A stretch of DNA of 64,000 nt from Bacilli bacterium (GTDB taxonomy: Bacteria > Bacillota_I > Bacilli_A > RFN20 > CAG-826): assembly GCA_017447165.1 (NCBI GenBank), contig JAFSOD010000004.1, forward strand, positions 305,267-369,266, given 5' to 3'. Position numbers and translations under genes: made by a program. The notes under the pieces were generated by a model. It worked only from the letters and a program-made list of their open reading frames with translations, searched no databases and was not told where the DNA came from. Positions 45,731-56,901 of the stretch are shown here, one piece after another (the stretch's first letter is position 1; every line of letters begins with the position of its first letter).

Positions 45731-47014
45731 ATGTTAGACATTAATTTAATTAGAGAAAAACCTGAATACGTAAAAGAGGCTCTTAAAAAGAAACTCTGGG
45801 ATACAGATTTTACTGAACTCCTAGAGTGGGATAAAGAAAAAAGAGAACTCTTAAAAGTTGTTGAAGATAACAAGGCAGAAATGAATAGACTTTCCGCTTC
45901 TGTCCCTGCCGCAAAAAAAGCAGGCGAAGACGTTTCTAAGATCTTCATGCAAGTCAAAGAAATTGCGAAGAAAAATGTTGAATTTGAAGCAAAATTAGAA
46001 CAAATTTCTGCTAAAATGACTGAATTCCTTGAAGCTTTACCAAACATTCCTGATGATGATTTAGTGGGTGGTGGTAAAGAGAATAATAAGGTTGTTCATG
46101 TTTATGGTAAAAAGCCAGAATTTAGCTTCAAAATGAAGGACCATGTTGAGCTCGCTACATCCTTAGGATTAGTCGATTATGACCGCGGTGCTAAAGTTGC
46201 TGGTAGAGGCAGCTGGGTCTATACAAATTTAGGTGCTCAACTTGAATGGGCATTACTCAATTTCTTCATTTCTGAGCACTTAAAAGATGGTTATGAATTT
46301 ATACTACCTCCACATTTATTAAATGAACAAAGTGGTTACGTTGCTGGTCAATTTCCAAAGTTTAGAGAAGATGTTTTTTGGCTTGAAGGACTTGAACCAC
46401 AAAGATTCTTACTTCCAACCGCTGAAACTGCTTTAGTTAATCTTCATAGAGATGAGATTATGAGTGAAGATGATCTTCCAAGAAAATACTTCGCTTATAC
46501 TCCTTGCTATAGAAGAGAAGCTGGAAGTTATCGTACTGAAGAAAGAGGTATGATTAGAGGCTATCAATTCGATAAAGTTGAAATGGTTCAATATACCAAA
46601 CCAGAAGATAGTGATGCCGCTTTTGAAGAGTTAGTAGGGAAAGCCGCTAGCTTAGTGGACAAACTTGGATTACATTTCCAAATCTCTAAATTAGCTGCTG
46701 GAGATATCTCCCACTCTATGGCGAGAACTTATGATATTGAAGTTTATATTCCATCTATCGGTATTTATAAGGAAGTTAGCTCTGCTAGTAACGCTAGAGA
46801 CTATCAAGCTAGACGTGGAAAAGTGAGATATAGAGACTCTGCTACTGGTAAAACCAGATTCGTTCATACATTAAACGCCTCTGGACTTGCTACTAGTCGT
46901 GTCTTCCCTGCTATCTTAGAACAATACCAACAAGAAGATGGATCAGTCGTCGTCCCAGAAGTCTTAAGACCATTCATGGGCGGACTTGAAGTCATTAGAC
47001 CTGTTAAGAAATAA
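45731..47014 (+). CDS. serS: Seryl-tRNA synthetase
   Basis: This class II synthetase charges tRNA-Ser. The N-terminal coiled coil that grips the tRNA long arm spans about residues 30-100; motif 2 is FAYTPCYRREAGS, and motif 3 lies in HTLNASGLATSRVFPAILE. The length of 427 is normal. No T-box leader is present; the gene follows gyrA by 39 bases and probably shares its transcript. It ends at the hairpin at 47035. Confidence 0.96.
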   Translation: MLDINLIREKPEYVKEALKKKLWDTDFTELLEWDKEKRELLKVVEDNKAEMNRLSASVPAAKKAGEDVSKIFMQVKEIAKKNVEFEAKLEQISAKMTEFLEALPNIPDDDLVGGGKENNKVVHVYGKKPEFSFKMKDHVELATSLGLVDYDRGAKVAGRGSWVYTNLGAQLEWALLNFFISEHLKDGYEFILPPHLLNEQSGYVAGQFPKFREDVFWLEGLEPQRFLLPTAETALVNLHRDEIMSEDDLPRKYFAYTPCYRREAGSYRTEERGMIRGYQFDKVEMVQYTKPEDSDAAFEELVGKAASLVDKLGLHFQISKLAAGDISHSMARTYDIEVYIPSIGIYKEVSSASNARDYQARRGKVRYRDSATGKTRFVHTLNASGLATSRVFPAILEQYQQEDGSVVVPEVLRPFMGGLEVIRPVKK

Positions 47015-47034
47015 TTATTAGAATTATGCAAATC

Positions 47035-47060
47035 ACCTTCTCTTAATGAGAAGGTTTTTT
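47035..47060 (+). terminator. Terminator after serS
   Basis: ACCTTCTC (47035-47042), 5-base loop, GAGAAGGT (47048-47055), then TTTTTT. The next gene's -10 box begins 3 bases after the T-run. Confidence 0.9.
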
Positions 47061-47068
47061 GTTATAAT
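47061..47068 (+). promoter_or_regulatory. Extended -10 promoter directly after the serS terminator
   Basis: TTGTTATAAT ending at 47068 fits TGnTATAAT. The start codon of the interrupted gene lies only 5 bases downstream, so its transcript would have practically no leader. Confidence 0.6.
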
Positions 47069-47073
47069 ATTCT

Positions 47074-47280
47074 ATGGCGTACAATAAAGAATTTTCCTGA
47101 AGAATCTATTTTGAGATTACTCCATACGGTATTAAGAAGTTTGGTGGATTAGAAGAATATAAAGTCGAGGATAATTACATCAAAGAGTACTCAGGTAAAA
47201 TCCTCTATAAAATATATGGTAATCTATCTAGAACTGAGTTAATGTTCGCTTTAACCTTATTGTTTGAATTAGAGTATTAA
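47074..47280 (+). pseudogene. Small gene interrupted by an in-frame TGA at codon 9
   Basis: From ATG at 47074 to TAA at 47278-47280 the frame has 68 codons plus the stop; codon 9 (47098-47100) is TGA. After it the frame encodes an acidic, ordered-looking peptide (RIYFEITPYGIKKFGGLEEY to LTLLFELEY). The gene has its own -10 box and its own terminator, so the unit seems intact apart from the TGA. Either TGG for Trp has mutated to TGA, or the TGA is read through. It is not proof of a variant code, because other genes here stop at TGA. Product family unknown. Confidence 0.6.
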
Positions 47281-47300
47281 GTGCAGGATTTGCACTTTTT
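47279..47300 (+). terminator. Terminator of the interrupted small gene
   Basis: AAGTGCA (47279-47285), loop GGATT, TGCACTT (47291-47297), then T's to 47300. The first arm overlaps the stop codon. Confidence 0.82.
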
Positions 47301-47320
47301 CTTTACTATATATCCATATT

Positions 47321-47334
47321 TATATTAATATAAT
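47321..47334 (+). promoter_or_regulatory. Promoter with overlapping palindrome upstream of the HTH-CapE gene
   Basis: TATAAT at 47329-47334 is the probable -10 box, and the perfect palindrome TATATTAATATA (47321-47332) overlaps it. The fused helix-turn-helix protein could bind here, but such AT-rich palindromes also arise by chance. Confidence 0.4.
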
Positions 47335-47349
47335 GCCGAGGTGAGCTTT

Positions 47350-48543
47350 ATGACACTTAAAGAAATACGCAAAAATTGCAAATTAACACAGAAGGAAGCT
47401 AGCGTTGTTGTTGGCATGCCTTTAAGAACCTATGTTGATTATGAAACTAAAGAAAAAGAAGTTGATCAAATCAAACTACAAGGTATTAAAGATCGTTTGT
47501 TAGAACACGCTAGTAAAGATACTTCCATCTTAAAAGATAAAGTCTTATTAATTACTGGTGGTACTGGTAGCTTTGGTCACGCAGTTGTAGATCGTTTCTT
47601 AGATTCTGAGATTAAAGAAATCAGAATTTTATCCCGTGATGAAAAGAAACAAGATGATATGCGTAAAGCATATAATAACTCCAAACTTAAATTCTATATT
47701 GGTGATGTGAGAAACCTTGATTCTATTATTGATGCCTTTAAAGGTGTTGATTATGTTTTCTCCGCTGCCGCTTTAAAACAAGTTCCATCTTGTGAATTCT
47801 ATCCAATGGAAGCAGTAAGAACCAATGTTATTGGTAGTGACAACGTCATTACTGCCTGTGTCCGTAATGGAGTTAAAAAGGCTATCTTCTTATCTACAGA
47901 TAAGGCAGCTTATCCAATTAACGCTATGGGTATCTCTAAAGCATTAATGGAAAAGAACGTTATTGCTAGAAGTAGACAACTTTTACCTGGTGATACAGTT
48001 TTATGTTTAACTAGATATGGTAATGTTATGGCTTCTAGAGGTTCGGTTATTCCTCTATTCTTAAATCAAATCCATGAAGGAAAACCGATTACCGTCACTA
48101 ATCCAGATATGACTAGATTCATGATGACTCTAGATGATGCGGTTGATTTAGTGCTGTATGCATTTGAAAATGGTGAACAGGGTGATTTATTTGTTCAAAA
48201 AGCACCAGCGGCCACTATTGATACATTAGCAAAAGCGGTTATTGAATTAACGAATTCTAAAACTGGTATTTCCTATATTGGTACTAGACACGGTGAAAAA
48301 TTATACGAGACTCTTGTTACTCAAGAGGAGATGCTCAAATCTATTGATATGGGTAACTTCTTCTGTGTGAAAGCAGATAACCGTGATCTTAACTATGAAA
48401 AATATTTTTCTAAAGGAAATAAAAAACTTAATTTAGGAGAAAGCTATACCTCCCACAACACTGGTAGATTAGATGTTGAAGGTATGAAACAACTCTTAAA
48501 GAAATTAGAATTATTTGGTGGACCTGTTAGACAACATGAATAA
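47350..48543 (+). CDS. HTH domain fused to CapE-type UDP-GlcNAc 4,6-dehydratase
   Basis: Residues 1-55 form an XRE-like helix-turn-helix (TLKEIRKNCKLTQKEASVVV, then LRTYVDYETKEKEVDQIKL). From residue 65 an SDR enzyme follows: LLITGGTGSFGHAVV, AALKQVPSCEFYPMEAVRTN, STDKAAYPINAMGISKA and DMTRFMMTLDDAVDLV, the pattern of CapE, which makes the first intermediate of UDP-N-acetyl-L-fucosamine from UDP-GlcNAc. I chose the ATG at 47350 after GAGGTGA; a GTG three codons earlier is possible. CapE alone is about 340 residues; the extra N-terminal domain is unusual and could give autoregulation. capF and capG homologues follow without gaps. Confidence 0.88.
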   Translation: MTLKEIRKNCKLTQKEASVVVGMPLRTYVDYETKEKEVDQIKLQGIKDRLLEHASKDTSILKDKVLLITGGTGSFGHAVVDRFLDSEIKEIRILSRDEKKQDDMRKAYNNSKLKFYIGDVRNLDSIIDAFKGVDYVFSAAALKQVPSCEFYPMEAVRTNVIGSDNVITACVRNGVKKAIFLSTDKAAYPINAMGISKALMEKNVIARSRQLLPGDTVLCLTRYGNVMASRGSVIPLFLNQIHEGKPITVTNPDMTRFMMTLDDAVDLVLYAFENGEQGDLFVQKAPAATIDTLAKAVIELTNSKTGISYIGTRHGEKLYETLVTQEEMLKSIDMGNFFCVKADNRDLNYEKYFSKGNKKLNLGESYTSHNTGRLDVEGMKQLLKKLELFGGPVRQHE

Positions 48544-54384: not shown

Positions 54385-56901
54385 ATGTTTTCAAAGAAAA
54401 AAGAGAATGTTGAAGTGGAGAGAGTATCCACCGATATTAATACTGGTTTAAATAACGAACAAGTCGAAGCTAGAAAACTAGCGGGTTTAATTAATAAAAC
54501 CAAAATGATTGCTGGTAAGACGTATTGGGAAATTATTCGTACCGATGTTTTATCATTCTTTAACATCATGCTTTTTGTTATTGCAGGATTTATCATCTTC
54601 TCTAACTGCATGGATCCATCTGGAAAAACCCATTGGTATTCTGGCTTATTCTTCGTCTTAGTCCTTTTAACTAATATCATCATTGGCCTTTATCAAGACT
54701 TAAAAGCCAAACACTTGATGAGCAAATTAAAAGTTATCACCACTAGTAGCTGTAAAGTTATTAGAAATGGTGAGACTATTGAAATCCAACCAAGCGAGAT
54801 TGTGATTGATGATATTCTATTAATTTCTTCAGGAGAGCAAATTCCATCTGATTGCGTTCTTTTAGAAGGCAATGTCTTTGTTAACGAATCAATGTTAACT
54901 GGAGAAAGCTTAAATGTTGGCAAGTCAGTTGGTGACATTTTATATAGTGGTAGTTATTTAACTAGTGGCGCTTGCTTCGCAAGAGTGGATAAAGTTGGTA
55001 AAGATAACTACATTGAATCTTTAACTGAAAAGGCCAAGGCCTTTAAAAGAAATCCTTCTCAAATTTTAAGATCTTTAAAAATCTTATTTAGATACCTTGG
55101 CATCATCATTATCATCTTCGCAGTAATTATCTTCGCTACTTATGGGGCGTTAGGTTTATTTAATTCTGTAGAGAGCTTTGCTAGTATGATTAGACCAATC
55201 GCTGGTCAATTTGTGGGAATGATTCCTGCAGGATTATTCTTATTAACATCTTTAGCCTTAGCTAGTGGAGTGCTTTCTTTATATCGAAAAAGAGCGAACG
55301 TCCAAGATTTCTATTCTATAGAAATGCTCGCAAGAAGTGACGTTATTTGTGTTGATAAAACTGGGACAATCACTGATGGTAATTTAAATGTTACCCAAGT
55401 TGTTAATTTATCTAAATTAAGTGACGCGGAAATCGCTCAAATAATTCACTCAATTGAAGTGGCTACCGGAGACACTAATGCGACTGCAAAAGCGCTGCTT
55501 GATTACTCTAGTAATTCAGGAACCTTTGAATGTGAAAAAGTTTTACCATTTATGAGTGATAATAAATACTCTGGAGTATCTACTAGATTAGGTACCACCT
55601 ATTTATTAGGTGCTATGGAATTTTTAAATGTTAAAAATAAAGAAGCATTAATCAAACAAAGCGAAGAATATACTTCGAAAGGATTCCGTTTATTAGTCTT
55701 ATCTAAAGGCAAATCTCCTATTAACGGAGATAAATACACTGATGAAGTGGAAGCTTTAGCCTTTATCGTTCTTCAAGACCACGTTAAAGAAGATGCTGCC
55801 GCAACATTCAAATGGTTCCAAGAAAATAATGTTCAAGTAAAAGTTATCTCTGGAGATAACGCTTTAACTGTTAGTGAAATCGCTAGAGTCGCTGGTATTA
55901 ATGGAGCAGAGAAATATATTTCCTTAGAAGGTATGACTATTGAAGAAGTTAAAGCTATCGCTAACGACTATGTCGTTTTTGGTAGAGTTACCCCAGAACA
56001 AAAAGAAGCCTTAGTTATTGCTTTAAGAGAAGCAAAACACACTGTGGCCATGGTGGGTGATGGCGTTAACGATATGCTCGCTCTTAAAAGAGCGGACTGC
56101 TCTATCGCGATGAATTCTGGTTCACTAGGAGCTAGAAACGTATCTCACGTTGTTCTTCTTGATGATAATTTCTCTACTATGCCTTCAGTTGTGGGAGAAG
56201 GTAGAAGAGTGATTAATAATTTACAAAGAACTGGATCCTTATTTGTTACTAAGACATTATTTGTGGGTGCGCTTAGCTTCTTCTTCTTAATTGCTTCTTT
56301 AATTAATAAAGAAATCGTTTATCCGTTCTCCACAAATAACATGATGCTTTGGGAAGTCTTCGGCATTGGTTTAGTTGCCTTCTTTATTGCGTTAGAACCA
56401 GATAGTAAACCAATTAGACCTGGTTTCTTAAGAAACATTATGAGAAATGCGATTCCTTATGCATCCTTGTTATTAGTCGCAGTCTTAGCAAGCTATATGT
56501 GTTTAATCTTAAATGAACATGGTGTTTATACTGGAGTTAGAGAATATGGTGTATCTATCTTAGATACAGGTGCTGGTAGATATGGGGCTACTTCAATAGC
56601 AATACTTTCAGTATCTATGTTATCAATGTTTGTTTTATATCTTACTTGCCAGCCTTTAAATCTCTATCGAGGCATTGTTGTGGGAAGCTTTGCCGCTATT
56701 CAATTAGGAACAATACTTGCCTTTAATTTTGCTGGTGGAGAAATAAATATTTTAAATATTAATTTTGCTCGTTTAACTGGCGAAAACTGGGTAGCAATAG
56801 TAGTTATTGTTGCTGTTTTAGGATTCTTAGCGGTAGCGGCGAATAGTATTCATATGAGTTTATTAAATATAAAAAAGAAGGAAATAGAAAATGAAAATTA
56901 A
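54385..56901 (+). CDS. Cation-transporting P-type ATPase
   Basis: This membrane pump of 838 residues has the phosphorylation motif DKTGT with Asp324, the actuator MLTGES, the hinge MVGDGVNDMLALKRADCSIAM and about ten membrane helices. It lacks the heavy-metal-binding N-terminal domain. The overall layout resembles the CtpE-like group of putative calcium exporters, but the ion is not certain. It is the first gene of a five-gene plus-strand operon, and the next gene overlaps its end by 11 bases. Confidence 0.88.
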   Translation: MFSKKKENVEVERVSTDINTGLNNEQVEARKLAGLINKTKMIAGKTYWEIIRTDVLSFFNIMLFVIAGFIIFSNCMDPSGKTHWYSGLFFVLVLLTNIIIGLYQDLKAKHLMSKLKVITTSSCKVIRNGETIEIQPSEIVIDDILLISSGEQIPSDCVLLEGNVFVNESMLTGESLNVGKSVGDILYSGSYLTSGACFARVDKVGKDNYIESLTEKAKAFKRNPSQILRSLKILFRYLGIIIIIFAVIIFATYGALGLFNSVESFASMIRPIAGQFVGMIPAGLFLLTSLALASGVLSLYRKRANVQDFYSIEMLARSDVICVDKTGTITDGNLNVTQVVNLSKLSDAEIAQIIHSIEVATGDTNATAKALLDYSSNSGTFECEKVLPFMSDNKYSGVSTRLGTTYLLGAMEFLNVKNKEALIKQSEEYTSKGFRLLVLSKGKSPINGDKYTDEVEALAFIVLQDHVKEDAAATFKWFQENNVQVKVISGDNALTVSEIARVAGINGAEKYISLEGMTIEEVKAIANDYVVFGRVTPEQKEALVIALREAKHTVAMVGDGVNDMLALKRADCSIAMNSGSLGARNVSHVVLLDDNFSTMPSVVGEGRRVINNLQRTGSLFVTKTLFVGALSFFFLIASLINKEIVYPFSTNNMMLWEVFGIGLVAFFIALEPDSKPIRPGFLRNIMRNAIPYASLLLVAVLASYMCLILNEHGVYTGVREYGVSILDTGAGRYGATSIAILSVSMLSMFVLYLTCQPLNLYRGIVVGSFAAIQLGTILAFNFAGGEINILNINFARLTGENWVAIVVIVAVLGFLAVAANSIHMSLLNIKKKEIENEN

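Follow-up and report, generated by a model that had tools for sequence, protein, structure and literature searches.

A small gene with an in-frame TGA beside serS in a Bacilli bacterium is probably a recently inactivated, half-deleted beta-flower pseudogene

Does an in-frame TGA near the beginning of an otherwise open small gene mark a damaged gene, or a genome in which UGA is read as an amino acid? The question is raised by positions 47074–47280 (+) of a 64,000-nucleotide stretch of contig JAFSOD010000004.1 (assembly GCA_017447165.1) of a Bacilli bacterium; this whole stretch is called the window below. The frame has 68 codons and translates as MAYNKEFS, a stop, and then RIYFEIT onwards to LFELEY and a terminal TAA. 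A preliminary description of the DNA had stated that only the TGA at codon 9 (47098–47100, +) breaks the frame, and the sequence confirms that this is the sole internal stop. The same description considered a fresh nonsense mutation, readthrough and a trace of the TGA reassignment of Mollicutes. We think it very likely that the locus is a recently inactivated beta-flower pseudogene that has lost half of its repeat units.

The window frame was searched against 59 genomes, the window's own (G000) and 58 relatives, and gave matches in 21 of them at E up to 10. Since homologues match at E values down to 6.8e-20 and lie in the same gene slot, the frame is not a chance one, and the conserved frame in relatives that the preliminary description proposed to look for does exist. 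The five best matches besides the window's own come from members of the same genus (G009, G013, G002, G010 and G017). Here an intact gene of 113–116 aa sits between serS and a polysaccharide-synthesis (dehydratase) gene, just as in the window, where the seryl-tRNA synthetase gene serS (45731–47014, +) is the left neighbour and a gene for an HTH plus NAD-dependent polysaccharide-biosynthesis dehydratase (47350–48543, +) the right one; both neighbours are common to the window and the relatives. The window frame amounts to about 59% (68/116 codons) of the gene in four of these five orthologues. A wider alignment was drawn from 15 of the 21 matching genomes and leaves out the window copy, a G033 fragment that lies at the end of a contig, two proteins of a 240-aa type (G001 and G012) and two weak matches (G030 and G031). 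All 15 aligned homologues consist of six 16-residue units.

The slot itself varies among the genus members that were read: it holds the beta-flower gene in five and the remnant in the window, and in three further members it is empty twice (G005 and G012) and occupied once by a different, 225-aa gene (G001). As measured by pS, G017 is nearest to the window for serS (0.315), the dehydratase gene (0.354) and a wecB-like gene (0.306), and G002 for gyrA (0.216); an epimerase-like gene hardly separates the relatives (0.452–0.480 to the window). Despite the proximity of its serS, dehydratase and wecB-like genes, the beta-flower copy of G017 shares just 50–53% identity with the window frame and the other four copies, which points to rapid change of this copy or to its replacement. 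Elsewhere in the genus and family there is another type of six-unit protein, in which the repeats are YCGPY-like and a Cys precedes the Gly of each unit (G003, G004, G005, G006, G008, G014, G015 and G022). The only other match to the family profile in the window's own genome, at E up to 10, is a beta-flower-like stretch (G000:C4:177987-178283, − strand; E 5.9e-6) at the C-terminus of a 240-aa protein with N-terminal segments that look hydrophobic by eye.

What the intact gene encodes is best seen in the relatives. The best AlphaFold2 model of the G013 orthologue has 12 strands and a C-terminal helix at residues 101–115 (pLDDT 86.5, pTM 0.82; the other four models have pLDDT 85.3, 79.5, 58.5 and 31.9), and the intact protein is made up of six 16-residue units followed by this helix. 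Repeated beta-hairpins, 12 strands and a C-terminal helix are beta-flower features that apply to the relatives rather than to the window copy. As described in the available part of PMC10584680, beta-flowers are built symmetrically from repeated beta-hairpins with 8, 10 or 12 strands and often carry a helix at the C-terminus; they comprise the families Bflower (PF21784), Bflower_2 (PF21785) and Bflower_3 (PF21786), which belong, like the Tubby C-terminal domain, to Pfam clan CL0395. One homologue, that of G042, passes the Pfam cut-offs (Bflower_2 with 46.8 over 38 bits, Bflower with 27.8 over 25), while Bflower_3 stays below its cut-off of 34 bits with G016 (31.0) and G017 (19.7). At E up to 0.01, three of the 15 homologues were matched by Bflower_3, two by Bflower_2 and one by Bflower; no Bflower match was obtained for G009 (E up to 1), for G013 (E up to 0.01) or for the window fragment. 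Foldseek found no match in the PDB at E up to 0.001. The best VIA-align match was 1zxu (Z 6.6, rmsd 4.7, 100 aligned), weak alone since a Z in this range may reflect a common arrangement only; the same entry is compared with beta-flowers in the available text of PMC10584680. Two other leads were discarded: SPATA2_PUB-like matched four of the 15 homologues (best 1e-7, E up to 0.01) and was taken as a repeat-driven match, and among solved structures a profile search turned up nothing sensible, its best match being an antibiotic-resistance protein at E 0.0082. We conclude that the locus formerly encoded a six-unit beta-flower, a shallow barrel of 12 strands with a C-terminal hydrophobic helix that belongs to the tubby-like fold class.

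In the five syntenic orthologues codon 9 is GGA (G013, G002 and G010), GGT (G009) or GGC (G017), and glycine is invariant at the equivalent place in all six units of all 15 aligned homologues. The TGA therefore replaces the conserved turn glycine of unit 1, and the simplest route would have been one G-to-T change from GGA. The earlier suggestion that a tryptophan would fit at this position does not agree with these data, and the TGG that it led one to look for in close relatives was never encountered, all five having a glycine codon. Its option of a fresh nonsense mutation is instead supported, both by the glycine codons (three of the five being a single G-to-T change away from TGA) and by further damage to the gene in the form of a deletion.

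Compared with G013, G002, G010 and G009, the gene of the window is shorter by 48 in-frame codons, the equivalent of three units. The best place for a single deletion is after codons 24–26 when G013, G002 or G010 is compared; with G009, placements after codons 22–27 score equally. The deletion joins unit 2 to unit 5 and, since these two units are alike, the exact point of the junction (47140–47154, +) is ambiguous. The two unit borders resemble each other in the relatives as well (25–35 of 48 nt identical, about 52–73%), as expected for a deletion between repeats. The divergent copy of G017, which ends three codons earlier, gives a different and flat optimum after codons 47–54. The complete flower has accordingly not been kept: the remnant at 47074–47280 (+) retains three of the six units, with the TGA in unit 1, and a C-terminal segment followed by the TAA. 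Two further conserved sites are altered only in the window copy: codon 4, where an Ile or Leu has become Asn, and codon 48, where Tyr stands in place of an acidic residue. When the 68-residue read-through product with a Trp at codon 9 was modelled with AlphaFold (five-row alignment, single chain), the model was poor, with a best pLDDT of 47.9 and a pTM of 0.31.

The promoter and the terminator had been described as intact, and this was largely but not entirely upheld. The serS intrinsic terminator (47035–47060, +; hairpin 47035–47055) has a T-run that adjoins the promoter of the small gene, and the region 47030–47062 folds with an MFE of −12.1 kcal/mol and a z-score of −4.28. The small gene has its own intrinsic terminator (47279–47303, +; hairpin 47279–47297), for which the fold of 47278–47305 has an MFE of −7.6 kcal/mol and a z-score of −2.86. 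Two terminator hairpins thus flank the gene where the shuffle mean is 0.2, and all five syntenic relatives have similar sequences at both positions, as judged by sequence, with folds computed for the window only. The extended −10 element TGTTATAAT (47060–47068, +) is likewise present in all five. On the other hand, no −35 was found for it, and a simple promoter scanner did not include it among its six promoter-like sites (shuffle mean 2.5). The start region also seems to be nearly rather than exactly preserved, because the 5 nt between the TATAAT and the ATG of the window compare with 10 nt in G009 and 6 nt in the four other orthologues.

A distance of only 5 nt (6–10 nt in the relatives) would make the small-gene transcript leaderless or near-leaderless. 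In 449 kb of the window's own genome, a TATAAT most often ends 6 nt before the ATG when the ORF has 60 codons or more (9 cases). There are 13 cases at 6–7 nt and 7 at 9 nt; the remaining spacings have between 0 and 5 cases each, 5 nt having none. The peak at 6 nt suggests that this lineage has many leaderless genes. An ORF elsewhere in the window, at 54385, has a spacing of 7. A literature search on leaderless genes with a TATAAT found no paper.

How long ago was the gene lost? Both lesions are absent from all five relatives, and for this reason they will have arisen on the branch that leads to the window alone. Compared with G013, G002, G010 and G009 the window copy has a pN/pS of 0.25–0.28, and with G017 one of 0.45; the intact G009 copy, used as a control at similar synonymous divergence, gives 0.23–0.27 to G013, G002 and G010. 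Being like an intact gene by this measure, the window sequence is not visibly decayed. Of the changes found in the window alone, 14 are non-synonymous and 9 synonymous, compared with 10 and 9 for G009 and a simulated neutral share of 0.711 to 0.230. The ratio on the window branch gives p 0.087 against neutrality and p 0.76 against G009, so that relaxed and purifying selection are not separated and the counts do not date the loss. A second 'stop' in the window at codon 66 in this count arises only because a two-base change was scored base by base, and G009 shows a similar artefact at codon 8. The survival of the promoter core, the terminator and the rest of the frame, together with the presence of a single stop, leads us to infer that the loss is recent.

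The genome as a whole treats UGA as a normal stop. It has prfB, encoding RF2 (484.3 bits against a cut-off of 370), and the beginning of this gene reads GSSL followed by an in-frame CTT TGA, with FDLAKLETE continuing in the +1 frame, which we take to be the known layout of the RF2 programmed frameshift. Forty-four tRNA hits exceeded the cut-off. ARAGORN named 43 of them (42 distinct sequences), and the last has a CAU anticodon when read from the alignment. No tRNA with a UCA anticodon was among the 44 in a genome rated 96.21% complete, the set being slightly incomplete with tRNA-His uncalled; the only anticodon of tRNA-Trp is CCA, and those of tRNA-Gly are CCC, GCC and TCC only. Other genes do stop at TGA, as had been stated: this is true for four of the 45 non-overlapping window ORFs of at least 100 aa, and for 34 of 350 such ORFs in 449 kb of the genome. 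Run-on of at least 20 codons follows 7/34 TGA stops versus 73/316 TAA or TAG stops (Fisher p 0.83). The idea of a trace of the Mollicutes reassignment is not supported by these results, as both of the checks that had been proposed for it, a tRNA-Trp(UCA) and a loss of release factor 2, came out negative.

A genome-wide reassignment of UGA has accordingly a negligible probability in our view, whether to tryptophan as in Mollicutes (code 4) or to glycine as in Gracilibacteria (code 25), where UGA encodes glycine. It is true that UGA is the least used stop (34/350), that the lineage is AT-rich (34% GC) and near Mollicutes (relatives are named Erysipelotrichaceae or Bacillales), and that glycine in the relatives formally fits code 25. 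Nevertheless, RF2 is present with its UGA frameshift site, none of the 44 tRNAs has a UCA anticodon, TGA ends long ORFs with no excess of run-on, and for the tryptophan version the conserved residue at codon 9 is glycine in 15/15 homologues. It is just as hard to credit that the codon is selenocysteine or otherwise recoded: nothing beyond the in-frame UGA speaks for it, the relatives have Gly and not Cys, and the region 46900–47500 gave no match to an Rfam family at E up to 0.1. A further alternative is an error at the TGA base or, less likely, a collapsed repeat that mimics a deletion, and a single assembly of the species stands behind that base. We nevertheless consider this quite improbable, as the window belongs to a contig of 718,710 bases and the copy has other changes of its own at conserved sites (codons 4 and 48); a repeat collapse is in turn unlikely because the unit borders are only about 52–73% identical in the relatives.

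Another explanation, although an unlikely one, is a leaky gene: the near-cognate tRNA-Trp(CCA) would read the UGA as Trp at a low level, and small amounts of a half-flower carrying this Trp at codon 9 would still be produced. The sole tRNA-Trp(CCA) found in the genome (G000:C4:19340-19413, − strand; 74 nt) has C27 facing U43 unpaired, and therefore an anticodon stem of four pairs, as well as C9 and A24; a non-standard 27:43 pair with a CCA anticodon places it among tRNAs with a 4-bp stem. In the available text of PMC13092985, an engineered 4-bp-stem tRNA-Trp(CCA) is reported to read through UGA in E. coli, with G43U and C27A variants said to mediate it. The part of the frame downstream of the TGA is also still open. 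However, C27A by itself failed to produce readthrough when assayed in vitro, and for 2677 standard-code genomes with only such a tRNA-Trp(CCA) it is suggested that RF2 competes well enough (PMC13092985, available text). The 27:43 position could be compared in 30 of 46 tRNA-Trp matches (from 43 of the 59 genomes searched) and is C.U in 11, G.U in 9, A.C in 3 and A-U in 7. Among the matches listed, at least six genus members (G002, G007, G010, G011, G013 and G017) have the identical 74-nt tRNA. Four of these (G002, G010, G013 and G017) keep Gly at codon 9, and for this reason the tRNA-Trp did not by itself bring about the TGA, though it may let a trace of product through. Further arguments against a leaky gene are the presence of RF2, the ability of A24 to pair with U11, which makes this tRNA no mispaired Hirsh mutant, and the poor model of a half barrel with Trp in place of the invariant glycine. 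TGA also stops without excess run-on, although RF2 competition would hide low leakage. No clear trend links the share of TGA stops to the tRNA-Trp type in ORF samples from five genomes: 34/350 in G000, 7/76 in G002 and 5/58 in G005 (all C.U), 3/85 in G009 (G.U) and 15/97 in G036 (A-U). A bolder version, in which the UGA is tolerated because the only tRNA-Trp of the clade (C27.U43, C9, A24) leaks, strikes us as highly improbable. In that case three-unit half-flowers carrying Trp at codon 9 would still be made in small amounts, perhaps pairing with themselves into a six-unit barrel; if true, a standard-code bacterium with RF2 would be in an early leaky state of the kind able to precede UGA reassignment.

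A recently inactivated, half-deleted beta-flower pseudogene thus remains the best account of the locus. Comparison with the relatives shows two lesions, which may have come in either order: three whole 16-residue units (48 codons, in frame) were lost between repeat borders that are similar to each other, and a TGA took the place of the invariant turn glycine in unit 1. Translation would begin at or next to the 5′ end of the mRNA and yield eight residues (MAYNKEFS) before RF2 stops it at the UGA. A useful restart is not to be expected, as the only in-frame ATG, GTG or TTG codons after codon 1 are codons 57 and 63, and restart downstream of the TGA was rejected as a candidate on these grounds. 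Several points speak against the pseudogene: nothing but the two lesions interrupts the frame, its pN/pS is like that of an intact gene, the changes on the window branch differ neither from neutrality nor from G009, and the comparison with G017 places the deletion differently and without a sharp optimum. Nor does the halved size alone prove that the gene is dead, because the beta-flowers in the available text of PMC10584680 include half-flowers. In itself, a nonsense mutation in such a small gene, whose role is unknown, is ordinary; read in this way, the locus ceases to be an apparent hint at an altered genetic code close to Mollicutes.

We finally compare the locus with two published systems. 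The sole tRNA-Trp of this genome resembles the 4-bp-stem tRNA-Trp(CCA) of PMC13092985 in its open top stem pair (C27.U43) but differs in having C9 and A24, outside the class called 'Blastocrithidia-like' in the available text, and the genome has kept the standard code. The occurrence of an open-stem tRNA-Trp beside RF2 in this clade offers a testable setting for how leaky UGA reading might precede reassignment. The intact relatives resemble beta-flowers, as far as these are described in the available part of PMC10584680, in their sixfold short beta-hairpin repeats and C-terminal helix, but the syntenic orthologues tested (G017, G009 and G013) score below the Pfam cut-offs and the window copy has only three units and a stop in the first. 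With about half of the units left after the deletion, this copy resembles the half-flower fragments of unknown status that are mentioned in that source. In contrast to these, however, its half size can be traced by comparison to an in-frame deletion, and it carries a nonsense codon in addition. The in-frame loss of half of the units of a beta-flower is therefore one possible origin for the half-flowers in print.
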